Shown here one piece after another: positions 3,019 through 58,000 of a stretch of DNA of 64,000 nucleotides. Location of the stretch: the NCBI RefSeq assembly GCF_003367315.1, contig NZ_CP031415.1, forward strand, positions 3,594,001 to 3,658,000, written 5' to 3'. The translations under genes were made by a program, and so were the position numbers. Source of the stretch: Saccharospirillum mangrovi (lineage in GTDB: Bacteria; Pseudomonadota; Gammaproteobacteria; Pseudomonadales; Natronospirillaceae). Under the pieces are notes generated by a model. It was not told the DNA's origin and searched no databases. It worked only from the letters and a program-made list of their open reading frames with translations. The number at the start of each line of letters is the position of its first letter. Positions within the stretch are counted from its first letter, which is position 1.

Positions 3019-3873
3019 TCACTGAGACCGGCGCAACGTCGCCATCGCTAATAACGCCGACACGGCCATCAACAACAAGGCCACCGCATTCAACACCGGC
3101 GTTGAACCTTCGCGCAGGCGGTTGAACAGCGCCACGGTTAACGGCGTATCGCTGCCGGTCAGCATGACGGTGGTGTTGAAGTTCTCGAACGACATCAAAA
3201 ACGCCATCGCCGCCGCGCCGAAAATCGCTGGCAGCAGCCAGGGCAAGGTAACGGTAAACCAGGCAACGATCGGGGTTGCTCCGAGATTCAACGCCGCTTC
3301 TTCCAACTGCGGATCGAACTTGCGCAAACGGGCAGCGATGATCAGCGTGGAGAGCGTGGTGATAAACGCTACCTGGCCGCCAATCACCAGCGGCAGACCA
3401 GGCCGGAACAGATCGAGTTCGATGCCCCAACGCAGCGATACCTCGTTCGCCAGACCGCTGTAAAACACCAGAATTGACACGCCCAGAATCACACCCGGAA
3501 TCACCAGCGGCAGCAGCATCACCAGATACAACACTTCCTTGCCGCGAAACTCGATGCGCTCGAACAACACCGCATTAACGCAACCGAGCGCGACCGAAAT
3601 CACCGTCACCCAGAACGCCACCAACACACTGACCCAAAGCGCCGACAACAAACCCTGATCGTGAAACAGGCCGGTGCGGTTGCCGCTTTCGGCAGCGTTG
3701 GCGAAGTACCAATCGACGGTAAAACCCTGCCAGGGCAAGGACGGGAAATTGGAATCGTTGAACGCAAAGACGGCCGTTACCAGCAACGGCAGCGCGAGAT
3801 AAATAAAGAACGCCAACAGATACAGCAAATAGAGACTGTTAAAGACGCGCGAACGCGGTACCGAGCGAATCAT
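3019..3873 (-). CDS. polyamine-type ABC transporter permease (PotC/PotI-like)
   Basis: Inner-membrane permease of a type I ABC importer. The 284-residue protein has six predicted membrane segments, beginning with LYLLYLLAFFIYLALPLLV. The cytoplasmic EAA loop, which couples to the ATPase, is EEAALNLGATPIVAWFTVTL. The segment FPSLPWQGFTVDWY resembles the periplasmic start of PotC-family proteins. It is the last gene of a four-gene operon and overlaps the preceding permease by 4 bp. The substrate is inferred as spermidine or putrescine from family and neighbours; another small cation cannot be excluded. Confidence 0.88.
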   Translation of the reverse strand: MIRSVPRSRVFNSLYLLYLLAFFIYLALPLLVTAVFAFNDSNFPSLPWQGFTVDWYFANAAESGNRTGLFHDQGLLSALWVSVLVAFWVTVISVALGCVNAVLFERIEFRGKEVLYLVMLLPLVIPGVILGVSILVFYSGLANEVSLRWGIELDLFRPGLPLVIGGQVAFITTLSTLIIAARLRKFDPQLEEAALNLGATPIVAWFTVTLPWLLPAIFGAAAMAFLMSFENFNTTVMLTGSDTPLTVALFNRLREGSTPVLNAVALLLMAVSALLAMATLRRSQ

Positions 3874-4730: not shown

Positions 4731-5809
4731 AGGCTGGCCTCGGCAAACACCGTCGCGCGCTGCGGTTCCCAGCCGAGAGTGACGGCAGAACCCGGTTGCA
4801 AATCGCCCACCGAACCATCCTGCGGCAAACGCGCAAACAACTCGCGCTCGCCCAGACGGGTTTCGATGCGGCTGTTGGCGCCGTCGAACAAAGTAGTACT
4901 CAGTTGCGTTTCAACCCGACTGAACGACGCTGGCAGTTCGCTGCCAATCAGCATCGATTCGGGACGGATAAACAGCGATGCCCGCTGGCCCACACTCAAG
5001 TCAGCCGATACCCGGCCACTGACTTGCGCGCCGCTGTCCAATTGCAGCTGCGCCATGCCGTTGTCGAGACTCAGCACTTCGCCATCAAGCCGGTTGTTGT
5101 CGCCTACAAAACTCGCCACGAACGGCGTTGCCGGTTCGCGATACAACACATCCGGTGCCGCGACCTGATCGAAGCGACCATTGCGCATCACCGCCACCTG
5201 ATCGGACATCACCAGCGCTTCGGATTGATCGTGCGTGATGTAAACGAAGGTGGTGCCGAAGGCTTTCTGCAAATGTTTGAGTTCGACTTTCATCTGCTCG
5301 CGCAGTTTTAAATCGAGCGCGCCGAGCGGTTCGTCGAGCAACAACAAGGTCGGTTCCAGCACCAGACAGCGCGCCAGGGCAACGCGTTGACGCTGGCCGC
5401 CGCTCAACTGCTGCGGCATGCGATCACCCAGACCGGGCAAGCCGACTTGTTCCAGCACGCGCTCTGTTTTCTGGCGGCGTTCGGCCGCGGCGACTTTGCG
5501 CCGTTTCAGGCCGTAACCGATGTTGTCGGCAACGCTCATGGTCGGGAACAACGCCAGGTGCTGAAACACCATGTTCACCGGCCGCTTGTTCGGCGGCACG
5601 GTGTTCATGCGTTGATCGCGAATGAAGATGTCGCCGGAATCCGGCCGGTCGAAACCGGCCAGCAGGCGCAGCAAAGTGGTTTTGCCGCAGCCTGACGGGC
5701 CGAGAATCGAGAAAAACGAACCGGCCGGTACGTCCAGCGAAATCCGGTCCACCGCTTGGTGATCACCAAAACGGCGGACCAGCTCGGTACAACGAAGATC
5801 CGAGGCCAT
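4727..5809 (-). CDS. polyamine-type ABC transporter ATPase (PotA/PotG-like)
   Basis: Cytoplasmic ATPase powering the importer, 360 residues. It has Walker A GPSGCGKTTLLRL, Q-loop region NMVFQHLALFPTM, signature LSGGQRQRVALARCL, Walker B LLLLDEPLGALD and the switch histidine in YITHDQSEAL. A C-terminal TOBE-like region follows from about residue 240. Start 5809 (MASDLRCTELV) is chosen because the fold begins there and a GAGG site precedes it; the 210-bp upstream extension overlaps the binding-protein gene and looks like a shadow. It lies 7 bp after the binding-protein gene. Confidence 0.9.
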   Translation of the reverse strand: MASDLRCTELVRRFGDHQAVDRISLDVPAGSFFSILGPSGCGKTTLLRLLAGFDRPDSGDIFIRDQRMNTVPPNKRPVNMVFQHLALFPTMSVADNIGYGLKRRKVAAAERRQKTERVLEQVGLPGLGDRMPQQLSGGQRQRVALARCLVLEPTLLLLDEPLGALDLKLREQMKVELKHLQKAFGTTFVYITHDQSEALVMSDQVAVMRNGRFDQVAAPDVLYREPATPFVASFVGDNNRLDGEVLSLDNGMAQLQLDSGAQVSGRVSADLSVGQRASLFIRPESMLIGSELPASFSRVETQLSTTLFDGANSRIETRLGERELFARLPQDGSVGDLQPGSAVTLGWEPQRATVFAEASL

Positions 5810-7755: not shown

Positions 7756-8493
7756 ATGATCAAACTCACCCTGCGCCCGCTCGCCCTGTTGGTTGCCCTG
7801 GCGCTAGCCAGCCTCGCCGCCCACGCCGATGAACTGACCGAAGCCGACGTCGAACAACTGGTGCACGACTATCTGCTGGCACACCCCGAAGTGGTGCAAG
7901 AAGCGCTGGATCGTCTGCAACAGCAACAACAAGCCGCGCAAGCCGCCGCCGAACAACAACGCCTGAGTTCCCTGAACGAACAACTGGTCAGCTACCCGCA
8001 CGACCCGGTCGGCGGTAACCGTGATGGCGAACTGACGTTGATCGAATTCTTCGACTACAACTGCGGCTACTGCAAACGCGCCAACGCAACGCTGCAAGCC
8101 TTGATGGAAGACAACCCGAATCTGCGCGTCGTTTATAAAGAATTCCCAATCCTCGCGGAAACTTCGGTCACCGCCGCGCGCGCGTCGCTGGCCTTGAACA
8201 AGCTGTATCCGGAACACTACGAAACCTTCCACCGCAGCCTGCTGGAACGTCGCTCGGGTCTGCAAAAAGACGACGATGTCTGGGACGCCATTGAAGAACT
8301 GGACGGCGTCGACACCGCTGCCATCCGCGCCGAAAGCCAGGCCGACTGGGTACAACAAACCCTCGCCAGCAACTACCAACTGGCACGCCAACTGAACATC
8401 AGCGGCACCCCAACCTTTGTGATCGGCGACAACATGCTGCGCGGTGCGTATCCGCAAGCGGATATTCAAGCGGCGATTGACGAAGCGAGCTGA
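7756..8493 (+). CDS. secreted DsbA/Com1-like thiol:disulfide oxidoreductase
   Basis: Probable periplasmic disulfide oxidoreductase or isomerase of 245 residues. A signal peptide (MIKLTLRPLALLVALALASL, cleaved near AHA) is followed by a charged helical N-domain with a glutamine/alanine-rich stretch at residues 55-68, as in Com1 and ScsC-like proteins that oligomerise. The thioredoxin fold carries the active site CGYC at residues 103-106 and the cis-proline in SGTPTFVIG. DsbB is encoded at 40832. The last 291 bp are duplicated at 10912-11202. The start at 7756 is set by the signal peptide and an upstream GGAG. Confidence 0.9.
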   Translation: MIKLTLRPLALLVALALASLAAHADELTEADVEQLVHDYLLAHPEVVQEALDRLQQQQQAAQAAAEQQRLSSLNEQLVSYPHDPVGGNRDGELTLIEFFDYNCGYCKRANATLQALMEDNPNLRVVYKEFPILAETSVTAARASLALNKLYPEHYETFHRSLLERRSGLQKDDDVWDAIEELDGVDTAAIRAESQADWVQQTLASNYQLARQLNISGTPTFVIGDNMLRGAYPQADIQAAIDEAS

Positions 8494-8506
8494 GCTTTAA
8501 GTAACC

Positions 8507-8529
8507 AAAAAAGGGCCGTTAAGGCCCTT
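8507..8529 (-). terminator. intrinsic terminator after kelch gene 1
   Basis: The stem AAGGGCC/GGCCCTT with a 5-base loop is followed on the minus strand by six U residues. It lies about 55 bp past the stop of kelch gene 1 and also just after the plus-strand dsbA-like stop, so it could serve both convergent genes. An exact counterpart exists at 11216-11239. Confidence 0.8.
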
Positions 8530-44789: not shown

Positions 44790-46901
44790 TCAGCCCTGAA
44801 CCCGTTCGATACTGCCAACCGCTGGCAGGCCATGCAGACGACGAATCACCCGCGCCAAATGCTGACGACTGGTAACCGAAACGGTGAGATTGAGACGGCT
44901 GGTGGTGGCATCGCGTTCCTGCATTTCGATGCTCTCGATGTTGGCATCAGCTTGCGATACCGCATTGGCAACGCCGGCCAACACACCGCGGCTGTTGCGC
45001 ATTTCCACGCGCAGATCGACGACGAATTCGCCTTCCATCGATTTATCCCAGCGCAGGTGCACACAGCGGTCCGGGTCTTTGCGCATCTCGACGATGTTCC
45101 GGCAATGCTCGACATGAATCACCATGCCCTTGCCTTTGCTGATCAGACCGACAATGGGATCGCCCGGAATCGGCCGGCAGCATTTGGCGTAGGTCACCAA
45201 CATGCCTTCGGTACCGCTGACGGTCATCGCTTTGTCGCTGCTTTCTTCGGACGCTTCGGCACAGTCGTTCAATAAGCGCCGCGCCACCACATAGGCAACG
45301 CGATTGCCCAGACCGATGTCTTCGAGCAAATCGTCCAGCTTCGCCAACTGATATTCACTGAGCAGACTGTTGATGCTGGCGTCGGACACGGCATCCAATT
45401 CAGTGTCGAAATTGCGCAAGGAATTGTTCAGTAACTTGCGACCCAGCTCGACTGAATCCTGCTTTTTCAGATTCTTCAGGAAATGGCGAATGTTGGAGCG
45501 CGCCTTGGCGGTGATGACGAAATTCAGCCAGGCCGGGTTCGGGCGCGCGCCCGGCGCGGTGATGATTTTGATGGTGTCGCCGCTGTTCAGCGGCTGGCTC
45601 AGCGGCGCGATCTGGCGGTTCACCAGACAACCGACGCAGGCGTTGCCGATGTCGGTGTGCACGGCGTAGGCGAAATCGACTGCGGTCGCGCCCTTGGGCA
45701 CTTCGAGAATTTTGCCTTTCGGGGTGAAGACGTAAATCTCGTCCGGGAACAGATCGATCTTCACGTTCTCGATAAATTCGACCGGGTTGCCGGCGCGTTC
45801 CTGCATTTCCAGCAGGCCTTTTACCCAGCGGCGGGCGCGGGCGTGCGTCGGGCTGTTGTCTGAACTGTCTTCGTTCTTATACAGCCAGTGCGCGGCAATA
45901 CCGTGGTTCGCCATGTCTTCCATTTCCTGAGTGCGGATCTGGATTTCGATGGGCACGCCATTCATGCCGATCAAGGTCGTGTGCAGGCTTTGGTAGCCGT
46001 TCGCCTTGGGAATGGCGATGTAATCTTTGAAGCGGTTCGGCACCGGTTTATAAAAATTATGCACCACGCCGAGCGTGCGGTAACAGGCATCGACCGACTG
46101 GGTGATGATGCGGAAACCGTAAACGTCGAGGATTTCCTGCAACGTCTTTTTCTGGTCCTTCATCTTGGTGTAGATGGAGTACAGATGTTTTTCCCGACCA
46201 ATCACCTGAACGTCGATGCCTTCGGCACCCAGCCGTTCACTCAACGCCTGACGAATCTGCCCGACCAGTTCCTTGCGATGCCCACGGCTTTGTTTGATCG
46301 CCTTGGCAATGCGCTGAGCGCGCAGCGGATACAGCGATTCGAACGCCAGGTTTTCCAACTCGATGCGCAAATCGTTGATGCCCAAACGCAGCGCGATGGG
46401 CGCGTAAATATCCAGCGTTTCGCGGGCTTTGCGGCGTTTTTTCTCTGGCGGCATGGCACCGAGGGTGCGCATGTTGTGCAAGCGGTCGGCGAGTTTGACC
46501 AGAATGACGCGGATGTCTTTCGACATCGCCAGCACCATTTTCTGGAAGTTTTCCGCCTGTTCTTCTTTCTTGGTTTCGAATTCCAGGTGCGTCAGCTTGG
46601 ACACGCCATCGACCAGTTCCGCCACGCCGGCGCCAAACTGTTCAGCCAGTGCTTCTTTGGAGACGGCGGTGTCTTCGATGACGTCGTGCAGCATGGCGGC
46701 CATCAGGCTTTGATGGTCCATGTGCATTTCACAGAGGATATTGGCGACCGCCAGCGGGTGGGTGATGTAACGCTCGCCACTGCGTCGCATCTGGCCTTCG
46801 TGGGCTTGCTCGGCGTAATAATACGCCCGCCGGATACGACGAATGTTATCCGGTTCCAGATAGCTCTCTAGCCGTTTGGCTAAGGCATCGACGGTGAGCA
46901 A
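44790..46901 (-). CDS. spoT: bifunctional (p)ppGpp synthetase/hydrolase SpoT
   Basis: Makes and degrades the alarmone (p)ppGpp. It has the HD hydrolase domain (ITHPLAVANILCEMHMD, MLHDVIEDTAVSKE), a synthetase domain (YRTLGVVHNFYKPVPNRFKDY), a TGS domain (VFTPKGKILEVPKGATAVDFAY) and a C-terminal ACT domain. The start is taken as TTG at 46901 with AGGAAG nine bases upstream, giving 703 residues against 702 in E. coli; an upstream in-frame start at 46961 falls near the rpoZ terminator. It follows rpoZ, as in most gammaproteobacteria. Confidence 0.95.
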   Translation of the reverse strand: MLTVDALAKRLESYLEPDNIRRIRRAYYYAEQAHEGQMRRSGERYITHPLAVANILCEMHMDHQSLMAAMLHDVIEDTAVSKEALAEQFGAGVAELVDGVSKLTHLEFETKKEEQAENFQKMVLAMSKDIRVILVKLADRLHNMRTLGAMPPEKKRRKARETLDIYAPIALRLGINDLRIELENLAFESLYPLRAQRIAKAIKQSRGHRKELVGQIRQALSERLGAEGIDVQVIGREKHLYSIYTKMKDQKKTLQEILDVYGFRIITQSVDACYRTLGVVHNFYKPVPNRFKDYIAIPKANGYQSLHTTLIGMNGVPIEIQIRTQEMEDMANHGIAAHWLYKNEDSSDNSPTHARARRWVKGLLEMQERAGNPVEFIENVKIDLFPDEIYVFTPKGKILEVPKGATAVDFAYAVHTDIGNACVGCLVNRQIAPLSQPLNSGDTIKIITAPGARPNPAWLNFVITAKARSNIRHFLKNLKKQDSVELGRKLLNNSLRNFDTELDAVSDASINSLLSEYQLAKLDDLLEDIGLGNRVAYVVARRLLNDCAEASEESSDKAMTVSGTEGMLVTYAKCCRPIPGDPIVGLISKGKGMVIHVEHCRNIVEMRKDPDRCVHLRWDKSMEGEFVVDLRVEMRNSRGVLAGVANAVSQADANIESIEMQERDATTSRLNLTVSVTSRQHLARVIRRLHGLPAVGSIERVQG

Positions 46902-46962
46902 GGCGGCGCACTTCCTGACGGTGACTGCGTTTAAGTGTAATGAATGCGGGTAGTGCAGCAAT

Positions 46963-47341: not shown

Positions 47342-49141
47342 TTAGCCCGTTAAATAGGCACGCCAGCCGCCAAACTGGCTGATGTCGGTCGCCCCCGCCA
47401 GGCCGGCGCCTTCGCAGATAAAGCCACTGACCCAGCGGCCGTCGGCCAGTTCCAGTTTGCCGATGCCCAACGGCGCCGGGATATCGGCGACAAAACCGCC
47501 CAATTGATCGGCCGGTACCGACCAGAGTTCGACTTCGATTGCCACGCCGTTCGCCTCATCGCGCACCAGCCCAGGGCGATACGGCGGGCCGCCAGCCAGC
47601 GCGTAAAACCGATAACAGGCGGCGGTTTGGGTGCGCTCGCTCAGCGTCGCGCCACGTTCGGTCAGTTGGAAGTTCAGCGGCAAGCCATCCAGGTGCGCGC
47701 CGCAGACGGCGATTTCGATTCGGTCGCGCGCCTTGGCGGCTGGCGCGTCGATGCTCAACGGTTTCAAACCCAGTGCGCCTTGAGTCAGTTCCAACTGACG
47801 CTGCAATCGCTTGGCAATCGACAGCAGCGCCCGGTCACGAAACGCCGGCGCGCTCAGCGTGATACCAAAGGGCCGGCCGGAGTCGGTAAACGCCGTCGGC
47901 AACGCCACCGCCGCCCAATCGATCAGGTTCATAAAGTTGGTGTAATAACCCAGCTCGCTGTTGTGCTGCACCGGCTCGGCGAGCATTTCCGCGATGGTGA
48001 AATGGCGCCCGGCGGTCGGCGTCAGCAGCGCATCAATCCCCGCCAACTGCGCCCAGCAAGTGCGTTTCAGCGCGTTTAACCGATATTGGGCGCGGAACAA
48101 GTCGGTCGCTTTGGGGTCGCGGCCACCGGCGATGATGTCGTGCACCACCGGAAATACCTGTTCCGGCTGGGTTTCCATCATCGTTTGAATCGCCAGATAG
48201 CGTTCGCTGACCCAGGGGCCTTCGTAGAGCAGCCGCGCGGCTTCATCGAACGGCGCGTAGTCGATCTCGACCCAGTCGATGTCGGCGTTATCGAGCGCCG
48301 CCAGCGATGTTTGATAGGCCGCTGCAAAGTCGGCGTCGCCAAAGAATTTCAAATCCTGCTCACGCAACCGACCGATTCGCAGCCGACCCTGGCGCTGGCC
48401 GTAATGACGGCTGTGATTGTCGTAAATATTGGCACGGCTGTACGGATCGGCTTCGTCCAGCCCTTCGGCGCAGGCCAGCACGGTATTGGCGTCGTCGCAG
48501 TCGAGCGCAAACACACTGACGCAATCCAGGCTGCGACAAGCCGGCACCACACCCGTGGTCGGCAACAAACCGATGCTCGGTTTCAAACCGACCAGATTGT
48601 TCAGCGCCGCCGGCACCCGGCCGGAACCGGCGGTATCGGTGCCCAGGCTGAACGTCGCCATGCCCAGCGCCACAGCCACCGCCGACCCGGAACTGGAGCC
48701 GCCGCTGATGTAGCTCGGATCGAACGCATTGGCGCAGGCACCAAGGGGCGAGCGCGTGCCGTTCAGGCCGGTGGCGAATTGATCAAGATTGGTTTTGCCG
48801 ACGGGTATGGCGCCAGCGTCGATCAAGCGTTGCACCACCGTCGCTGATTCTGTCGGCGTATAAGCGAAAGCCTCGCAGCCCGCTGTGGTGGGGATGCCCG
48901 CTAAATCGATGTTGTCTTTGATCGCAAAGGGAATGCCCCACAGCGGCGTGGTAGCCGGGTCTTTCGCTGCCAGCGCGTCCAGATATGGCTGGCGTTCGGC
49001 GGCGCTGAGCCGATGAATCCAGATGTTGTGCCCAGCATAACGGTCGGCTTGCTGATCAATCTGTGCCAGCACGGCCGCCGGCGTCAGCGTGCCGGATCGA
49101 TAAGCCGCGCTTAGGCGAACAATGCGGGTATCCAGGGTCAT
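47342..49141 (-). CDS. atzF: allophanate hydrolase
   Basis: Hydrolyses allophanate to two ammonia and two CO2, the last step of guanidine (or urea) breakdown by the carboxylation route. The 599-residue protein has the amidase-signature triad: lysine in IPFAIKDNIDL and serines in ISGGSSSGSAVAVAL, with SLGTDTAGSGRVPAAL. A C-terminal domain of about 130 residues (IEIAVCGAHLDGLPLNFQLT) is typical of AtzF. It overlaps the carboxylase gene by 4 bp. Last gene of the riboswitch-controlled operon. Confidence 0.93.
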   Translation of the reverse strand: MTLDTRIVRLSAAYRSGTLTPAAVLAQIDQQADRYAGHNIWIHRLSAAERQPYLDALAAKDPATTPLWGIPFAIKDNIDLAGIPTTAGCEAFAYTPTESATVVQRLIDAGAIPVGKTNLDQFATGLNGTRSPLGACANAFDPSYISGGSSSGSAVAVALGMATFSLGTDTAGSGRVPAALNNLVGLKPSIGLLPTTGVVPACRSLDCVSVFALDCDDANTVLACAEGLDEADPYSRANIYDNHSRHYGQRQGRLRIGRLREQDLKFFGDADFAAAYQTSLAALDNADIDWVEIDYAPFDEAARLLYEGPWVSERYLAIQTMMETQPEQVFPVVHDIIAGGRDPKATDLFRAQYRLNALKRTCWAQLAGIDALLTPTAGRHFTIAEMLAEPVQHNSELGYYTNFMNLIDWAAVALPTAFTDSGRPFGITLSAPAFRDRALLSIAKRLQRQLELTQGALGLKPLSIDAPAAKARDRIEIAVCGAHLDGLPLNFQLTERGATLSERTQTAACYRFYALAGGPPYRPGLVRDEANGVAIEVELWSVPADQLGGFVADIPAPLGIGKLELADGRWVSGFICEGAGLAGATDISQFGGWRAYLTG

Positions 49142-52100
49142 AGGGTGCCCTCTTCAAGCGGTTCAGGTTGCACGATCACAATGGGTTGGCCGGCAGCGAC
49201 GCGGCTGCCGGCTTTCGATAACAAGCGAATCACCCGGCCATCGCAGGGTGCGGTGAGCGGAATTTCCATCTTCATCGATTCAAGAATCACCAGGGTGTCG
49301 CCGGCCTTCACGGGCGCGTCCAGTTCAACTTCGTACTGCCAGACGCTGCCCGCGACCGGGCTTTCCAGCACGCGGCTGCCCTCGGGCCAGCTTTCCGGTT
49401 CCGGCTCGGGTTCCGGTTCCGGCGGCTGGAAGTTGAACTGCCCGGTGGCGTGCCAGTCGGCCAATTCGGTTTCGAAGGCCGCCTGGCGACGGGTACGGAA
49501 GGCGTCGATGTCACTCTGGTTGGCGTCGATAAAGGCCTGATAGTCGGCCAGGCTGAAGGTGGTTTCCTCGATGCGCAGCGGGTATTGGCCCAGCGGGAAG
49601 TCGGCGCGGATTTGCAGCAACTCGTCTTGGCTGACCGGGTAGAAACGAATCTGGTCGAAAAAGCGCAGCAGCCAGGGCCGTTCAAATTCGGCGGTCTGGC
49701 GGTAGCGGTTCCACATTTGCAGCGTGCGACCGACAAACTGATAGCCGCCCGGCCCTTCCATGCCGTAGACGCACAGATAAGAGCCGCCGATGCCGACCGA
49801 GTTCTCCGCCGTCCAGGTGCGCGCCGGGTTGTATTTGGTGGTCACCAAGCGATGGCGCGGGTCAATCGGCGTCGCCACCGGCGCACCCAGATAGACATCG
49901 CCCAGCCCCATCACCAGATAGGACGCTTCGAACAGCACGGCTTTCACCGCCTCGATGTCGTCCAGGCCATTGATGCGGCGGATAAACTCCAGATTGCTCG
50001 GGCACCAGGGCGCATCGCGGCGCACCGATTGCTGATATTTCTGGATCGCCAGCCGGCAGGCTTCGTCGTCCCACGACAGCGGCAAATGCACGATGCGCGA
50101 CGGCACGCTCAGTTCATCCAGCCGCTGCGCCAGCTCGCGCTCACCGGCTTGCAGATGATCGAGCAACTGCGCCAGCGGCAGTTGCTGGCTGTCGTAATGC
50201 ACCTGCAACGAACGAATGCCTGGCGTCAGTTCGCGCATGCCCGGCAACGGATGCTGCTGTAGCCATTGCATCAGCGTGTGGGCGCGAAAGCGCAGCCGGA
50301 TATCCAGCACCGGCTCGCCGTATTCGACCAGCAGGAAATGGTCGCCCGCGGCGCGATAAACCACCGCCTCGTCGCCATCCAGCGTGCATAACACCGGCGT
50401 TTCAACCGATGCGGTTTGCCACTCGACCGGTTTCGGCGCGAGTTCGGCGATGGCTCGCTGTTGTGCCGCTTCCAGCGCGACCGCTGTTTCAATCGATACC
50501 GGCACAAAGCGAATCCGGTCGCCGGCGCGAAGTTGTCCGAGCATCCACAAATCCGCGCTGATGACCGTCGCCGGGCAGACGAAACCGCCCAACGATGGCC
50601 CGTCCGGCCCGAGAATCACCGGCATATCGCCAGTGAAATCGACGCTGCCGAAGGCGTAGGCGTTGTCGTGAATGTTGGACGGATGCAACCCGGCTTCGCC
50701 GCCATCGGGCCGCGCCCAGTCGGGTTTCGGGCCGATCAGACGAACGCCGGTGCGGCTGGAGTTGTAGTGCACTTCCCAGTCGGTGTTGAAAAAGGTGTCG
50801 ATGTCGGTCGGGGTGAAAAAGTCCGGCGCGCCGTGCGGGCCGTAGACAACGCGCAGTTGCCAGTCACAGCCCAGAGCGGGTTTTAAGTCTGCCGGTAATG
50901 TGCGTTGCGGAACCGGCTCAGTCGCGGCCGACAGATGCAACACATCGCCCGCCAGCAAGGCCCGGCCGTTATGGCCGCCAAACTGCCCAAGCGTGAAGGT
51001 CGCGCGCGAACCCAGATAGGCCGGGCAACCGATGCCGCCGCGCAAACAGACATAGCTGCGCGCGCCGGTATCGCTGACTTTGCCCAGCGTCAGTGTCTGA
51101 CCGGCGGCCACGTCAACCACTTGCCACATTTCGATCACGTTGCCGTCCAGTTCGGCGGCAATGTCGGCACCGGCGAGCACAATTTGGGTCGCCACGCTGA
51201 ACCGCAGTGTCGGTCCGGTCACGGTGATTTCCAGTCCGGCGGCGTCCGCAGCGTTATCGAGCAGGCGATTGCCCAGCCGGAACGAATGGCTGTCGAATGC
51301 GCCACTCGGCGGTACGCCGACGTCCCAGTAACCGAGCCGGCCGCTGGCGTCCTGAATCGTCGTCTGAGTGCCGCCGCTGAGTACATCGATGCGCGCCGGC
51401 AGTGCGCGAAAGTCGTTCAGATAGCGCGTCGTCATGCGGCCACTTTGCAACGCCGGATCGGCGACTAACGCACGCAGATAACCCAGATTGGTTTCGATGC
51501 CGTACAGCCGTGTCTCGGCCAGCGCCCAATCGAGCTTGCCCAGCGCGGCTTCGCGGTCAGCGCCGTGGACAATCAATTTCGCCAGCATCGGGTCGAAAAA
51601 CGGCGGCACTTCCAGGCCAGCATCGATCCAGTGGTCGACGCGCACACCGTCGCCGTCGGCAAAGGCGACTTCGGTCAGCAAACCGGCGGCTGGCTGGAAA
51701 TCGCGGTACGGGTCTTCGGCGTAGAGGCGCACTTGAATCGCATGGCCTTGTGGCGTCAGTTTCGGCGCGCTGGCTAATGGCGAATCGCCGGCCGCCTGGC
51801 GCAGCATCCATTCGACCAGATCGACGCCAAAGACTTCCTCGGTAACGCCGTGTTCAACCTGAAGGCGAGTGTTCACTTCGAGGAAATAGAAGTCGTCGGA
51901 ATCGGCATCGACAATGAATTCGACAGTACCGGCGTTGCGATAATTCACCGCCGCCAACAAACGTTCGGCGGTCTGGTGCAACGCCGTCGCCAATTCGGGT
52001 TTCAGATTCGGTGCCGGGCATTCTTCGACCACTTTCTGGTTACGCCGCTGGCTGGAGCAGTCGCGTTCGCCAATTGCCAGCGTTGTGCCCGCGCCATCGC

Positions 52101-52740
52101 CAAACACCTGCACTTCGATGTGCCGCGCCCGGTCGATGAATTTCTCCAGGAAAACGCCGTCGTCAGCGAAGTTCTGCCGGCCAAGGCGTTTTACTCGTTC
52201 AAAAGCGTCGTCCAATTCAGCCGCGCTGTTGCAGCGCTGCATGCCAATGCCACCGCCGCCGGAAGTGGCTTTCAGCATGATCGGAAAACCGATGCGGTCG
52301 GCTTCGCGCTGCGCCATTGGCAAATCGGTCAATAAAGCCGTGCCCGGCACCAGCGGCACACCAGCGCGTTCGGCCAGTTCGCGGGCGCTGTGTTTCAAGC
52401 CGAAAGTTTCCATTTGATCGGGCGTTGGGCCAATAAAGGCGATGGCAGCGGCTTCGACGCGGCGCACGAAATTGGCGTTTTCGCTGAGAAAGCCGTAACC
52501 GGGATGAATCGCTTTGGCGCCGCTGTCGCGGGCAATCTGCAAAATCTTATCGACGTTCAAATAAGTATCGCTGGCACCGCCGTCACCGAGCGGCCAGGCT
52601 TCGTCCGCCAGGCGCACGTGCAGGCTGCGCGCATCGCTGGCGGCATAAACCGCGACTGAGCGAATGCCGAGCCGTTTCAGCGTGCGAATGATGCGCACAG
52701 CGATGGCACCGCGATTGGCGATCAGGACTGTGTCGAACAT
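49138..52740 (-). CDS. biotin-dependent guanidine (urea-type) carboxylase
   Basis: Carboxylates guanidine (or urea) with bicarbonate and ATP. In 1200 residues: biotin carboxylase (1-445; ATSGGGGIGMQRC, HIEVQVFGDG, EVNTRLQVEHGVTEE), a KipA/KipI-like carboxyltransferase (about 460-1090; GWQ-free region with HYNSSRTGVRLIGPKPDWAR and GEAGLHPSNIHDNAY) and a biotin carrier domain with the lysine in LESMKMEIPL. The start MFDTVLIANRGAIAVRI at 52740 matches the fold; the ribosome site is weak. Sequence alone does not separate guanidine from urea carboxylase. The ykkC riboswitch and the DUF1989 pair argue for guanidine. Confidence 0.92.
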   Translation of the reverse strand: MFDTVLIANRGAIAVRIIRTLKRLGIRSVAVYAASDARSLHVRLADEAWPLGDGGASDTYLNVDKILQIARDSGAKAIHPGYGFLSENANFVRRVEAAAIAFIGPTPDQMETFGLKHSARELAERAGVPLVPGTALLTDLPMAQREADRIGFPIMLKATSGGGGIGMQRCNSAAELDDAFERVKRLGRQNFADDGVFLEKFIDRARHIEVQVFGDGAGTTLAIGERDCSSQRRNQKVVEECPAPNLKPELATALHQTAERLLAAVNYRNAGTVEFIVDADSDDFYFLEVNTRLQVEHGVTEEVFGVDLVEWMLRQAAGDSPLASAPKLTPQGHAIQVRLYAEDPYRDFQPAAGLLTEVAFADGDGVRVDHWIDAGLEVPPFFDPMLAKLIVHGADREAALGKLDWALAETRLYGIETNLGYLRALVADPALQSGRMTTRYLNDFRALPARIDVLSGGTQTTIQDASGRLGYWDVGVPPSGAFDSHSFRLGNRLLDNAADAAGLEITVTGPTLRFSVATQIVLAGADIAAELDGNVIEMWQVVDVAAGQTLTLGKVSDTGARSYVCLRGGIGCPAYLGSRATFTLGQFGGHNGRALLAGDVLHLSAATEPVPQRTLPADLKPALGCDWQLRVVYGPHGAPDFFTPTDIDTFFNTDWEVHYNSSRTGVRLIGPKPDWARPDGGEAGLHPSNIHDNAYAFGSVDFTGDMPVILGPDGPSLGGFVCPATVISADLWMLGQLRAGDRIRFVPVSIETAVALEAAQQRAIAELAPKPVEWQTASVETPVLCTLDGDEAVVYRAAGDHFLLVEYGEPVLDIRLRFRAHTLMQWLQQHPLPGMRELTPGIRSLQVHYDSQQLPLAQLLDHLQAGERELAQRLDELSVPSRIVHLPLSWDDEACRLAIQKYQQSVRRDAPWCPSNLEFIRRINGLDDIEAVKAVLFEASYLVMGLGDVYLGAPVATPIDPRHRLVTTKYNPARTWTAENSVGIGGSYLCVYGMEGPGGYQFVGRTLQMWNRYRQTAEFERPWLLRFFDQIRFYPVSQDELLQIRADFPLGQYPLRIEETTFSLADYQAFIDANQSDIDAFRTRRQAAFETELADWHATGQFNFQPPEPEPEPEPESWPEGSRVLESPVAGSVWQYEVELDAPVKAGDTLVILESMKMEIPLTAPCDGRVIRLLSKAGSRVAAGQPIVIVQPEPLEEGTL

Positions 52741-52846
52741 GGCTGTTTGTACCAAGAGAGCCGCCTCAAAACGGGCCGTCCCGTATGCAGAATCGAGCGA
52801 CGGCAGCGGTCGTCCGCTGCCGGAATGGATTGACACCGCGCGCCGG

Positions 52847-53509
52847 TCAGGCGTCCCAGATCAACACACCCAGCGGCGTCGGGTTAAAACCGCTGCACGG
52901 GTTGTTCAACTGCGGGCAGTTGGAAATCAGCAGAACCACATCCATCAGCGCCGTCAGTTCGACGTACTTGCCAGGGCCGGACAGGCCATCCTGAAAACTC
53001 AGGCCACCGTCGGGCGTGATTGGCACGTTCATAAAGAAGTTGATGTTGTGTCCAATATCGCGCTTGTGCAGACCAAACTCCGGGTGTTCTGCAATGGCGA
53101 GCATCCAACTGTCGCGGCACGAGTGCATGCAGCGTTTTTCCAGGTCGTACCGCACGGTGTTGCTCTCGCCGGCGCAGGCACCGCCGAGGGTATCGTGGCG
53201 GCCGCAGGTGTCGGCGACGATGTCGAGCATCGGCCGGTTCAGGTTGGAACGCAGCTGGCTGCCGGTGCTGAGGTAAACGTTGCCTTGCTCGCGCACAGTG
53301 TCCATGGCGCTGTAGCGTTCGCTCGGATCATCAAGGCTGAAGAACAGCGTATCGGCGGCTTCGTTGCCTTCGATGTCGACAATGCGCACCGTCTGGCCGG
53401 CCATGACCGGATGGATGAAATAATCGCCGGCCATAATGGCTTCGTTAAAGATCGCTGTGTCCATCTGGCGCGGGCTTTCGGCCAGATGTTGCGGAGCTTG
53501 TATGGTCAT
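52847..53509 (-). CDS. DUF1989 protein, second carboxyguanidine deiminase subunit (UAAP2-type)
   Basis: A 220-residue DUF1989 protein, long annotated as urea-amidolyase-associated protein 2. In characterised operons the two DUF1989 proteins together deiminate carboxyguanidine to allophanate (CgdAB). Visible family blocks are [26 protein letters not shown]-like [13 protein letters not shown] and the cysteine-rich [18 protein letters not shown]. The C-terminus [18 protein letters not shown] is also conserved. It overlaps the partner gene by 4 bp and precedes the carboxylase. Confidence 0.88.
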
Positions 53510-54249
53510 ACCGCCTCCGAAAATTGGCCGAGGTAATAGAGGGCGTTGTTGCGGAAACCGCGTTGGTTTTCGTCGCAGAAATTGCGGCAGTAGTCGTCGT
53601 CGCGCACCGGCTCGGCGGTGCCGAGTTCGACTTTGACCGGCCGCGCCGGGTAGCTGCTGGCGGTGTCGAGCGGGTGCGGGCAGGCGTGCAGCAACACCAG
53701 GGTATCCATCTCAAACCGCAGCGTGACGCTGTTGCCTGCCTGGCTGTGACCGGCGACGCGGCTCATCCGGCCGTGGTCATCAACGACAACCTTGTTGAAG
53801 AAATTCACGTTGGCGGGCAAATCGGCCAGGTCCATACCGTATTTCGCCATTTCCACCAGAAAGGCGTCGTGGCCGTTCTGGTGCCAGGCGTTGCGGTCGT
53901 TCTGGAAATCGCGGGCGCCCCAGCGTTCGTTGACAAGTTCAGCGTGGCTGTTGCCGCAGACGCTTTCGTGCCAGCCCAGGTCGTCTTCGATGATGGAGGC
54001 GAACACCCGGCCCATGTCGGAATACAGGCAGTTGCCGCGCGTCAGCTTGAAAGTGTGTTGGCATTTCAGGGTGTCGGGCGCGTTGTAACGCTCGAGCAGG
54101 TTGTCGGGGTTGAACATCAGCAGGCCAAGATTGGCGTCGCCAGTGATGTCAGTCAGCCGCATCACGGTGCCGCGCCGCAGCCGCAGCGACCAATGGCCGC
54201 CCGGGGCGATCTCGGTCTGGTAATCGATGGATCGGATCAGATCACTCAT
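53506..54249 (-). CDS. DUF1989 protein, first carboxyguanidine deiminase subunit (UAAP1-type)
   Basis: A 247-residue DUF1989 protein, partner of the next gene in the presumed carboxyguanidine deiminase. Family segments include [39 protein letters not shown] and the cysteine/histidine-bearing [16 protein letters not shown]. The start [18 protein letters not shown] at 54249 gives a 4-bp overlap with the ABC ATPase gene; the longer upstream reading is an overlap artefact. The tight spacing of transporter, deiminase and carboxylase genes supports one pathway. Confidence 0.88.
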
Positions 54250-55016
54250 GCGTGAATCCTTTGAATCAGTTCGTCGTCGAGCACATCGAGCGTGACCGCA
54301 TCGCGCTGCCCAACAGGTAAGTCGTAAGTGATGCGCGCGCCGTAGGCGTTGGGCGCTTGCGGATCGTGGCGCACCTTGTCGAACACCCACAGCCGGGTGC
54401 CGAGGTGAAAGCCTTCTTTGATGTCGTGCGTGACCATAAAGACGGTCAACTGGTATTCACGCCACAGCCGCAACACCAGTTCGTGCATGTCGGCGCGGAT
54501 GCCGGGGTCGAGCGCGCCGAAGGGTTCGTCGAGCAATAAGATGCGCGGCTTGTTCAGCAACGCCTGGGCAATCGCCAAACGCTGGCGCATACCGCCCGAC
54601 AGTTGATGCGGGTAGCGATTCAGCGCGTGGCCGAGACCAACTTCCTCAAGCAGCGCTTTGGCGTCTGCAACGGCCGTGCGTTTTTTCGCGCCGAATAAGT
54701 GACCGCTCCAGCCGCTTTGTTCAAATGCGCGGGCCGCCACGACGTTGTCGAGCACGGTCAGATGTGGGAAGACGGAATACTGCTGGAAGACGATGCCGCG
54801 GTCCGGCCCCGGTTCGTCTGGAATCGGTTGGCCGTCGAGCAACAGTTCGCCACGACTGGGCGCTTCGACGCCGAGCAGCAATTTCAAAAAGGTGCTTTTG
54901 CCGCAGCCGGACGCGCCGACCAGCGTGATGAATTCACCTTCGCTGACGGTCATGCTGACCCGCTCCAGCACCTGGGTATCGCCATAATTTTTCCAGACGT
55001 TACGCGCTTCGATCAT
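54246..55016 (-). CDS. guanidine-type ABC transporter ATPase
   Basis: Cytosolic ATPase of a NitT/TauT-family importer. The 256-residue protein has Walker A VGASGCGKSTFLKL, signature LSGGMRQRLAIAQALL, Walker B ILLLDEPFGALD and switch MVTHDIKEGFHLG. It lies between permease and deiminase genes with 4-bp overlaps on both sides. The substrate is inferred as guanidine from the riboswitch and enzymes. Confidence 0.9.
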   Translation of the reverse strand: MIEARNVWKNYGDTQVLERVSMTVSEGEFITLVGASGCGKSTFLKLLLGVEAPSRGELLLDGQPIPDEPGPDRGIVFQQYSVFPHLTVLDNVVAARAFEQSGWSGHLFGAKKRTAVADAKALLEEVGLGHALNRYPHQLSGGMRQRLAIAQALLNKPRILLLDEPFGALDPGIRADMHELVLRLWREYQLTVFMVTHDIKEGFHLGTRLWVFDKVRHDPQAPNAYGARITYDLPVGQRDAVTLDVLDDELIQRIHA

Positions 55017-55834
55017 GATTCAGCCCCCGCTTTGTGCCACGGGAACAACCAACGGTTGGCGCGCGCCAGCAGTTGGTCGAGCACAAAGGCCAGCAAGGTA
55101 ATCCAGGCGACGTACGGCAGGATGATGTCCATCGACAAATAGCGCCGCACCAGAAAGATCCGATAACCCAGGCCGTCGGTGGCGGCGATGGCTTCGGCAG
55201 CGATCAAAAACAGCCAACCGCTGCCGAGCGACAACCGCACCGCCTCGATCAGGCGCGGCAGAATTTGCGGCAGCAAGACGCGGCACAGAATCTGGCTGGT
55301 GTTGGCGCCGAGCGTCTGCGCCTTGATCAACTGCTGCGCCGGAATTTCCTGGGTGCGTTGCAGAATGTCGCGGGCGATAAAGGGGGTGATGCCCAAAGCA
55401 ATCAACGCCACTTTCGACAATTCGCCGAGGCCGACAACGATGAACAGAATCGGCAGCAAGGCCAGCGGCGGCACCAGCGAAATCACCGTCAGCAGCGGCG
55501 AGATACCGGCCGTTAACAACGGCAATGCGCCGGTCAGCAAACCGACCACCAGACCGATCAGGGCGGCGATGGCAACGCCGATCAACAACCGCTTCAGGCT
55601 GCTCAGCGTATCGACCCAGAACAGGTAATCGCCATTGCGTTTGCTTGGCTCCAGCGCCAGCGCATGCAGGGCGTTGCCCATCTGTTCGACGCTGGGCAGC
55701 AGCTTGTCGTTCGGGTTCGCCGCCAGCCGCGCATCCGATGCCAGCAGATACAGCACCAGCAGCAACGCGAAGGGCAGCAAACCGAGCAGCCAGCGGCCAC
55801 GCAAACCCGGCGTTCGGTTGATCAGCCGTTTCAT
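55013..55834 (-). CDS. guanidine-type ABC transporter permease
   Basis: Inner-membrane permease of 273 residues with about six membrane segments (LLGLLPFALLLVLYLLASD, LLTVISLVPPLALLPILFIV). The EAA-like coupling loop is around QTLGANTSQILCRVLLPQIL. It is related to the TauC/SsuC permeases. It follows the binding-protein gene by 31 bp and overlaps the ATPase gene by 4 bp. Confidence 0.9.
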   Translation of the reverse strand: MKRLINRTPGLRGRWLLGLLPFALLLVLYLLASDARLAANPNDKLLPSVEQMGNALHALALEPSKRNGDYLFWVDTLSSLKRLLIGVAIAALIGLVVGLLTGALPLLTAGISPLLTVISLVPPLALLPILFIVVGLGELSKVALIALGITPFIARDILQRTQEIPAQQLIKAQTLGANTSQILCRVLLPQILPRLIEAVRLSLGSGWLFLIAAEAIAATDGLGYRIFLVRRYLSMDIILPYVAWITLLAFVLDQLLARANRWLFPWHKAGAES

Positions 55835-55865
55835 TCTCGTTCCTCAGTCAGTCTGGCGTTCTGGC

Positions 55866-56915
55866 TCAAAGCGCGCCGTCGGCTGCCATCTGCATAAAGC
55901 TCGGATCGAAACGGAACTGGACATTGCCCGCATCGCCAAAGGTGCCAGCCGGCATTTCGATGCCGATAAAGCCGGCGTCCGGTGCGCCCATGCCGAGCAG
56001 GCCGTGATCGAACGAGAATTCCGCGACGTTGCTCATGGTGCTGACCAGGGTGTCGCTGTTCGCCAGTTCTAAAGCTTGCTCAGGGCTGTAGAACATTTCG
56101 GTGCTGGCAAGCTGAGCGTCGTAACCGGCAAGGTCGGTACCGGAAGCCACAGCCATGGCGGTACGCGCTTCGATGGCGGCGGCGGAATCGCCCTGCATGG
56201 TGCTCATGATTTCGTACCAGGCGCCTACTAAGGCTTTGCCGAAGTTCGGGTTTTCCGCCAGCGTTTCGGTGTTCACCACCAGCATGTCGATGATTTCGCC
56301 CGGAATTTGCGCGGAATTGAACACTTCGGTGCTGTTGTCCATCGCATTGATTTCGCTCAGCAACGGGTTCCAGGTGACCACGGCGGTTACGTCGTCAGTG
56401 GTATAGGCTGCAACCATGTCGGCGTCCGAGGTGTTGACCACTTCAACGTCGGCTTCGCTCAAGCCCACGCTATCCAAGCCACGCGCCAGCAAGTAATGCG
56501 ACACGCTCAGCTCAACCAGATTGACCGACTGGCCTTCGATGTCGGCCAGCGTTGAACCGTTCTTCAATACGATGCCGTCGTTGCCGTTGGAGTAATCGCC
56601 CAGAATCAGGCCGGTGCTGTCGACGCCGCTGGCGGCCGGAATGGTCAGCGCATCCATGTTGGTCATGGTGCAGCCGTCGAATTCACCGGCGGTGAATTGG
56701 TTGATCGATTCGACGTAATCGTTGATCTGCACAACGTCGATGTCGATGCCGTATTTGTCGGCCCATTTATCGACAATGCCCGCATCGGCACCGTAGGCCC
56801 AGGGCATCCAGCCGACGTAAATCGACCAGCAGATGGAGAAGGAATCTTTCGCGTTCGCTGCGGTCGCAGCCAGGGACGTGCAAAGCAACAGGGGGATCAG
56901 ACGAGTCAGTTTCAT
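55866..56915 (-). CDS. guanidine-type ABC transporter binding protein
   Basis: Periplasmic binding protein of 349 residues. MKLTRLIPLLLCTSLAATAA forms a signal peptide cleaved near ANAKD. The mature start DSFSICWSIYVGWMPWAYG and the downstream FDGCTMTNMDALTIPAASG are characteristic of binding proteins in ykkC-controlled carboxylase operons. GAGAGG lies 6-8 bp before the ATG. First structural gene of the operon, 73 bp after the riboswitch aptamer. Confidence 0.9.
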   Translation of the reverse strand: MKLTRLIPLLLCTSLAATAANAKDSFSICWSIYVGWMPWAYGADAGIVDKWADKYGIDIDVVQINDYVESINQFTAGEFDGCTMTNMDALTIPAASGVDSTGLILGDYSNGNDGIVLKNGSTLADIEGQSVNLVELSVSHYLLARGLDSVGLSEADVEVVNTSDADMVAAYTTDDVTAVVTWNPLLSEINAMDNSTEVFNSAQIPGEIIDMLVVNTETLAENPNFGKALVGAWYEIMSTMQGDSAAAIEARTAMAVASGTDLAGYDAQLASTEMFYSPEQALELANSDTLVSTMSNVAEFSFDHGLLGMGAPDAGFIGIEMPAGTFGDAGNVQFRFDPSFMQMAADGAL

Positions 56916-56964
56916 GGCGTGCCTCTCAGTGGTTTTACAGTCGGTCTCGGTTGTTGGCTCAGGA

Positions 56965-57129
56965 GTACTCTTGGCAATGCGCCAAACAAGTCTCCCGGGC
57001 TTTTGTCCCGCCGTGTAACCCTTCACTGAAAGGTCGAGTGCTCTCGGACCAGACGCCGTTGCAACGGCAACGACCGGAACCCTAGCGCTCTATTTTCCGA
57101 ATTGTGATGTCCGGTATTGCCAAGAGTAC
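56965..57129. repeat. 14-bp inverted repeat bracketing the riboswitch
   Basis: GTACTCTTGGCAAT at 56965-56978 and its exact complement ATTGCCAAGAGTAC at 57116-57129 flank the aptamer, separated by 137 bp. In the leader RNA the two can form a perfect 14-bp closing stem. The promoter-distal half can alternatively form a local 5-bp hairpin (56971-56985, GCCAA/TTGGC). Confidence 0.75.
56989..57089 (-). promoter_or_regulatory. guanidine-I (ykkC subtype 1) riboswitch
   Basis: On the minus strand, in order: CTAGGGTTCCG (near 57085-57075), CTGGTCCGAGAG (near 57055-57042), ACACGGCGGGA (near 57016-57004) and AAAAGCCCGGGAGA (near 57004-56991). These are the conserved blocks of the guanidine-I aptamer, with variable stems between them. 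It precedes the importer, deiminase, carboxylase and allophanate hydrolase genes, the typical regulon. No intrinsic terminator follows, so control may be at translation or through the flanking inverted repeat. Confidence 0.93.
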
Positions 57130-57144
57130 GGACGCAAGTCGCTT

Positions 57145-57160
57145 TACAAGCTCTGTGCCA
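57145..57160 (-). promoter_or_regulatory. sigma-54-like promoter of the guanidine operon
   Basis: On the minus strand TGGCAC, 5 bp, TTGTA resembles the -24/-12 consensus TGGCAC-N5-TTGCW, with the -12 C replaced by T. It would start transcription near 57133, just ahead of the inverted repeat and aptamer. Nitrogen control would suit the pathway. Confidence 0.45.
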
Positions 57161-57196
57161 AAGGCGACGGAAGCCAACCAAATCAAGCAGTTAGCG

Positions 57197-57208
57197 GCAC
57201 GTTCGTGC
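57197..57208. repeat. short palindrome upstream of the guanidine operon
   Basis: GCACG/CGTGC arms with a TT centre, about 65 bp upstream of the predicted transcription start. It could be an activator site, but the arm spacing does not match the usual NtrC site. Confidence 0.3.
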
Positions 57209-57298
57209 ACAAAGGAATGGAGCGATGGAACCAGAACGCACCGCCATCGCGCAGCGGCGCACTCTCAGAGGGCATATCGAAGGGAAAGAGACGTCGGT

Positions 57299-58000
<702 letters not shown>

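Follow-up and report, generated by a model that had tools for sequence, protein, structure and literature searches.

Can an operon whose protein families are named after urea be dedicated instead to guanidine, and if so, why would its messenger carry two different guanidine sensors? These questions are raised by seven genes in a 64-kb stretch of the Saccharospirillum mangrovi genome (contig NZ_CP031415.1). We refer to that whole 64-kb stretch as the window; coordinates are positions in it, and all features of the operon lie on its minus strand. Based on the sequence evidence outlined below, we propose that the locus is a guanidine uptake and assimilation operon, a reading to which we assign a probability of about 90%.

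From 5' to 3', the seven same-strand genes encode the substrate-binding protein of a predicted guanidine ABC importer (55866-56915, start ATG 56915; TIGR03427, 551 bits), an ABC permease (55013-55834; BPD_transp_1, with no NCBIfam model above its cut-off), an ABC ATPase (54246-55016; ABC_tran, with 0 of 25 listed NCBIfam models above cut-off), UAAP1 (53506-54249; TIGR03425, 324 bits, cut-off 206), UAAP2 (52847-53509; TIGR03424, 307 bits, cut-off 285), a predicted guanidine carboxylase that is annotated as urea carboxylase (49138-52755 from a TTG start, which we prefer, or 49138-52740 from an ATG; TIGR02712, 1827 bits, cut-off 1304), and allophanate hydrolase (47342-49141; TIGR02713, 785 bits, cut-off 511). 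UAAP1 and UAAP2 are adjacent DUF1989 proteins, both above their NCBIfam cut-offs, as expected for carboxyguanidine deiminase; we predict that they are its subunits CgdA and CgdB, respectively, with the letters assumed from gene order. The genes are tightly packed, with 4-bp overlaps at four of the six junctions, that between carboxylase and allophanate hydrolase included. The remaining junctions are gaps, of 31 bp between binding protein and permease and of 91 or 106 bp (depending on the start codon) between UAAP2 and carboxylase.

This gene set is consistent with a pathway in which the ABC transporter would import guanidinium, the biotin carboxylase would spend ATP to form carboxyguanidine, the DUF1989 pair would deiminate carboxyguanidine to allophanate and ammonium, and allophanate hydrolase would yield ammonium and CO2. 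The critical question is the substrate of the carboxylase, which has the architecture of the urea carboxylase family (biotin carboxylase, CT, and biotinyl domains are all detected) and is the sole gene of the 3.69-Mb genome above the TIGR02712 cut-off. According to PMC11410670, a guanidine carboxylase is distinguished by Asp at the positions numbered 1330 and 1584 in Kluyveromyces lactis. In an alignment of residues 2-1190 to the K. lactis urea amidolyase (PDB 5i8i), D701 falls opposite Asn1330 and D948 opposite D1584; the yeast enzyme (PDB 5i8i and 3va7) belongs to the same family but carries Asn1330 where the window has Asp701. Among the related loci that we compared, which are the best 80 of 370 relatives, both positions are Asp in 80 of 80. 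Most of these loci come from genera that we take to be gammaproteobacterial, and one is from Acidimicrobiales. By the published Asp criterion, a carboxylase that handles guanidine rather than urea is therefore supported at the level of sequence.

What would tell the cell to make these proteins? Upstream of the binding protein gene lies a Guanidine-I riboswitch aptamer (56990-57096), which matches Rfam RF00442 over the full model (1-107) at 90.9 bits (gathering score, 63; E 4.7e-15) and is the only such match in the 3.69-Mb genome. A second element, a Guanidine-II (mini-ykkC) riboswitch, occupies the gap between UAAP2 and the carboxylase (52771-52821; RF01068, 40.3 bits, cut-off 32). It consists of two hairpins whose loops, ACGA and ACGG, fit ACGR, and it is the only match of its class among those listed genome-wide, with 150 of 340 first-look candidates scored. 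An earlier note on this DNA, made from the sequence alone, had described a Guanidine-I aptamer followed by these seven genes, most of them overlapping by 4 bp, and the pathway set out above. The covariance search, the NCBIfam and domain matches, and the junction counts bear out that description, but the picture was incomplete in that the internal Guanidine-II element (52821-52771) was missed. The mechanically called open reading frame of the carboxylase, which begins at GTG 52836, spans this element and hides it.

The position of the Guanidine-II element also bears on where translation of the carboxylase begins. Three bases past its P2 hairpin is a GAGG (52767-52764) that is presumably the ribosome-binding site of the carboxylase. 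When the A of the start codon is counted as zero, the start of the P2 loop falls between -21 and -23 in the ten nearest relatives; among the 67 loci with Guanidine-II it ranges from -19 to -70, with 49 of them in the interval from -20 to -25. In the window the loop starts at -39 from ATG 52740 and at -24 from the in-frame TTG 52755. Because the latter spacing matches that in relatives and the GAGG is 8 bases upstream of TTG 52755, we consider this TTG the better guess. The folding energy of the Guanidine-II gap is no better than that of shuffled sequence (z -0.5), and we claim no anti-Shine-Dalgarno pairing.

Is the two-switch layout a peculiarity of this genome? We searched the 80 related loci with descriptors for Guanidine-I upstream of the operon and for Guanidine-II no more than 110 bases from the carboxylase, and we found the former in 72 and the latter in 67: both switches in 62 loci, Guanidine-I only in 10, Guanidine-II only in 5, and neither in 3. 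For six of the eight loci without Guanidine-I (L030, L032, L035, L050, L069, and L084), the contig ends early; in the other two, L054 and L076, neither the descriptor nor Rfam finds it. Elsewhere in 1.69 Mb, the Guanidine-II descriptor has only two other plus-strand matches and no minus-strand match, and it finds nothing in shuffled upstream sequences. In a cross-check of 20 of the 80 loci, Rfam places Guanidine-I above cut-off in 18 and Guanidine-II before the carboxylase in 6 (L016, L034, L045, L054, L088, and L089), while the descriptor finds the latter in 8 of the same 20 (L011, L014, L016, L020, L033, L034, L045, and L088). Clear Guanidine-II-like double hairpins are present in L011, L014, L020, and L033 but score below the Rfam cut-off (26.8 bits in L011), and the elements of L054 and L089 are matched by Rfam but missed by the descriptor. 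Each method misses elements that the other finds; thus, each alone under-calls Guanidine-II here.

Some of the loci depart from this layout in their own ways. Rfam places Guanidine-II before cgdA in two of the 20 checked loci, L039 and L088. In L039 it stands there instead of before the carboxylase (8466-8509, 34.2 bits). In L088, Guanidine-I (104.2 bits) is followed about 100 bases later by Guanidine-II (49.6 bits) before cgdA, the pair spanning 3368-3625, and a second Guanidine-II lies before the carboxylase (5103-5150, 40.5 bits). In the account given by PMC9481103, a tandem arrangement is not observed with any guanidine riboswitch class. Just before the carboxylase at 10001, L066 shows only one P2-like GGGACGGCCC hairpin, with an unrecognizable P1 and no Guanidine-II call by Rfam; it is possibly a one-hairpin Guanidine-II remnant. 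The ABC transporter genes of L028, L045, and L088 (ATPase and binding protein only in L088) are encoded upstream on the other strand, with Guanidine-I in the space between these genes and cgdA.

How might guanidine binding at the first switch be communicated to RNA polymerase? The answer that we propose lies largely beyond the 107 positions of the Rfam model. A 5' arm, GTACTCTTGGCAAT (57116-57129), is perfectly complementary to a 3' arm, ATTGCCAAGAGTAC (56965-56978), and the two would join the leader sequence on the 5' side of the Guanidine-I aptamer to the bases immediately on its 3' side in an outer helix that we call P0. Both arms are outside the model, as is most of a competing hairpin, H (56961-56996; -16.0 kcal/mol), which consists of the GGGAG end of the aptamer and downstream sequence and takes most of its 3' side from the P0 3' arm. 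We compared the best helix formed by each leader's own 5' and 3' flanks with that formed when flanks were permuted among genomes, using 73 leaders (that of the window and those of 72 related loci) and a redundancy-reduced set of 37. In the 37 leaders, the own mean is 26.7 versus 18.5 for permuted flanks (standard deviation, 0.66; z 12.4; 0 of 10,000), and in all 73 it is 25.8 versus 19.2 (z 14.3); control stretches give z values of 0.1 and 0.3. A second sample came from a phylum-wide draw of 249 genomes; 27 of them have Guanidine-I, and the genome of the window is one of these. Its 28 usable leaders give a z of 6.6 (0 of 10,000), and z is 5.1 (0 of 10,000) when two leaders resembling the first sample are removed.

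The arms also covary across relatives. In an alignment of 28 leaders, hand-picked and mostly window-like, RNAalifold predicts eight P0 pairs unprompted. The 14-pair helix in these leaders is 83% paired, with 44 double-changed cells and a covariation score of 0.364, each reached in 0 of 500 shuffles; breaks are frequent among the pairs near its inner end (columns 21-25). Another upstream hairpin, U, formed around the 5' arm of P0, shows a modest signal (z 3.7, 4 of 10,000). Could the inverted repeat around the aptamer instead be a regulator's DNA site, or chance, rather than an RNA helix? In favor of this, the 5' arm is near where the transcript is expected to start, some genomes could have a perfect repeat as an operator, and the repeat is not present in every leader. 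However, the arm sequences vary yet stay complementary, G-U pairs included, and are unrelated in different genomes; the permutation signal is accompanied by null controls; and sliding one strand by a single column cuts the pairing from 83% to between 39 and 45%. We consider a DNA site or chance improbable for these reasons, and we regard P0 as an RNA helix and, as it would exclude H, probably an antiterminator.

The relationship between P0 and H is central to that proposal. When the aptamer is enforced, folding of the leader yields P0; when folding is unconstrained, P0 is best at transcript lengths of 170 to 175 and H at lengths of at least 180. This switch with transcript length, together with the shared 3' arm, makes P0 and H look mutually exclusive. 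In the alignment, 90% of the cells of H are paired and 12 are double changed (further pair types, 85 of 500). A U-tract directly follows H in a few relatives, L034, L092, and L097, and we therefore read H as a terminator there; a simple U-tract pattern flags 6 of 73 leaders, in some of which the tract is not directly after H. A scan of 56850-57320 also returned two terminator-like matches at 57256-57237, which we set aside as lying upstream of the expected transcript start.

That start is suggested by a candidate sigma-54-type -24/-12 promoter, TGGCAC-N5-TTGTA (57145-57160), which scores 18 of 21 on weights of our choosing. A start at about 57134, 12 bases past the -12 element, would put the 5' arm of P0 right at the start of the mRNA. 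Farther upstream, a search for NtrC-like sites finds a weak enhancer half-palindrome with two mismatches (57258-57274). Sigma-54-type promoters are common in nitrogen assimilation. Sigma-54-like motifs scoring at least 18 of 21 occur in 53 of 73 leaders versus 0.8 expected, and NtrC-like sites with at most two mismatches at -320 to -80 occur in 36 of 73 versus 1.3 expected, where both expectations are from mononucleotide shuffles and the genomes, being related, are not independent.

The P0 platform and sigma-54 control are well supported by comparison; their function we infer as follows. Transcription would start near 57134 from the candidate sigma-54 promoter, probably under NtrC, and thus only when nitrogen is short. 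With guanidine bound, Guanidine-I would hold its GGGAG end, 57129-57116 would pair with 56978-56965 to form P0, H would be blocked, and RNA polymerase would read on. With no guanidine, H would form, and transcription would be stopped or weakened. Since H is not followed by a U-tract in the window, we speculate that the stop there may involve Rho or be of another kind. Farther along the message, guanidine on Guanidine-II would free the ribosome-binding site of the carboxylase, so that the ATP-consuming step would be made only if guanidine is still present. The overall logic would then be nitrogen shortage and guanidine for transcription, and guanidine again for translation of the carboxylase. 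Could this extend beyond one genome? We posit, at roughly even odds, that in the window's class (Gammaproteobacteria, judging by the relatives that are named) the Guanidine-I riboswitch of guanidine operons has a conserved expression platform, in which the 5' end of a sigma-54-driven mRNA is a decoy arm that competes with the 3' end of the aptamer for an arm of the stop hairpin and which, together with Guanidine-II, forms a three-input gate.

Several observations weigh against this proposal. Of the 37 leaders, only 11 find their strictly best partner in their own 3' flank, and 22 have that flank ranked in the top tenth. Several leaders are without a convincing P0; L041, L067, and L074 are among those whose scores do not exceed those of permuted pairs. 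In the alignment, the numbers of P0 pairs with a double change (9; 5 of 500 shuffles) and of further pair types (23; 68 of 500) are less striking than the other measures. In the second sample, the 7 leaders outside the window's class give no P0 signal (z 1.0, 1809 of 10,000) while the 21 leaders within it give a z of 6.9; P0 therefore looks like a feature of the class and not of all Guanidine-I RNAs. Hairpin H alone is weak by permutation (53 of 10,000), perhaps because its GGGAG side hardly varies, and in the window it has no U-tract and so lacks one half of the intrinsic terminator signature of a GC-rich hairpin plus U-tract. The full-length leader folds without P0 in the absence of ligand (-84.1 kcal/mol free versus -63.1 kcal/mol with the aptamer enforced), a ligand-free fold that is non-native; we take from the energies only that P0 can coexist with the aptamer but not with H. 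The -12 element of the window is nonconsensus, with GT in place of GC, although the -24 GG is present, and no sigma-70 promoter match was found in 56850-57320. Finally, 10 of the 72 Guanidine-I loci are without a descriptor-called Guanidine-II before the carboxylase (cmscan finds one in L089), which argues that the second switch is dispensable.

How much of this is already known? Published work (PMC12186494, PMC12508155, and PMC11410670) already covers the pathway, its misannotation, and the layout with two riboswitches. As described in PMC12186494, operons of Raoultella, Erwinia, and Klebsiella have Guanidine-I before the importer and deiminase genes and Guanidine-II before the carboxylase and allophanate hydrolase genes, which is the same switch and gene order as in the window but in different bacteria. 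PMC12508155 reports that the gca operon of Vreelandella boliviensis has Guanidine-I before the operon, an internal Guanidine-II between cgdB and gca, an ABC importer, cgdA and cgdB, gca, and allophanate hydrolase, all of which it shares with the window. In V. boliviensis, binding and induction by guanidine were measured, and methylguanidine is also a ligand of the Guanidine-II element; the operon differs in having mgdH/mgdL between gca and the hydrolase, where the window has none. The main text of the review PMC12186494 has no occurrence of NtrC or sigma, and that of PMC12508155 mentions an intrinsic terminator once, and neither sigma-54 nor NtrC at all. Our literature search, outside of which lay the original Guanidine-I and enterobacterial operon reports, found a description of neither the P0 helix nor the sigma-54-like promoter. 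The two-switch layout is known, and P0 and the sigma-54-type promoter look like extra control layers.

Might the locus still be a urea-degrading (urea amidolyase) operon, with riboswitches that sense guanidine merely as a side signal? The names speak for it: NCBIfam labels the carboxylase "urea carboxylase," the UAAP proteins urea amidolyase associated proteins, and the binding protein a putative urea binding protein. However, both specificity residues of the carboxylase are of the guanidine type, elements of two guanidine riboswitch classes sit inside the operon, and a separate, intact urease alpha gene elsewhere in the genome (995 bits) would probably make urea carboxylation redundant, so we consider a urea operon very unlikely. 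The earlier note had placed the carboxylase in a guanidine pathway and, expecting it to be annotated as urea carboxylase, called the whole operon easily misnamed; the K. lactis alignment agrees on the first point, and on the second, misnaming is indeed likely because the model itself is called "urea carboxylase." We give equally little credence to a pathway mainly for detoxification or methylguanidine use and not nitrogen supply, for although the V. boliviensis Guanidine-II also accepts methylguanidine and an SMR-family gene elsewhere in the genome (112 bits; a second match is weak, at 24.5 bits) is possibly a guanidine exporter, the operon encodes an importer that a detoxification system would not need, the 4-bp carboxylase/hydrolase overlap leaves no mgdH/mgdL between those two genes (the rest of the genome was not searched for them), and the candidate promoter motif belongs to the sigma-54 type linked above to nitrogen assimilation.

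Beyond the operon, 380 bp downstream of its last gene, is a RelA/SpoT-family gene (44790-46961, minus strand) with a listed TTG start.

A guanidine uptake and assimilation operon at this locus would be a clear and complete case in which the databases say "urea amidolyase" while the riboswitches, the signature residues, and the layout say guanidine. P0 and the sigma-54-type promoter lead to testable predictions on why two classes of guanidine sensor share one mRNA. Such an arrangement would keep three things apart: nitrogen status, whether to transcribe, and whether to make the enzyme that consumes ATP.

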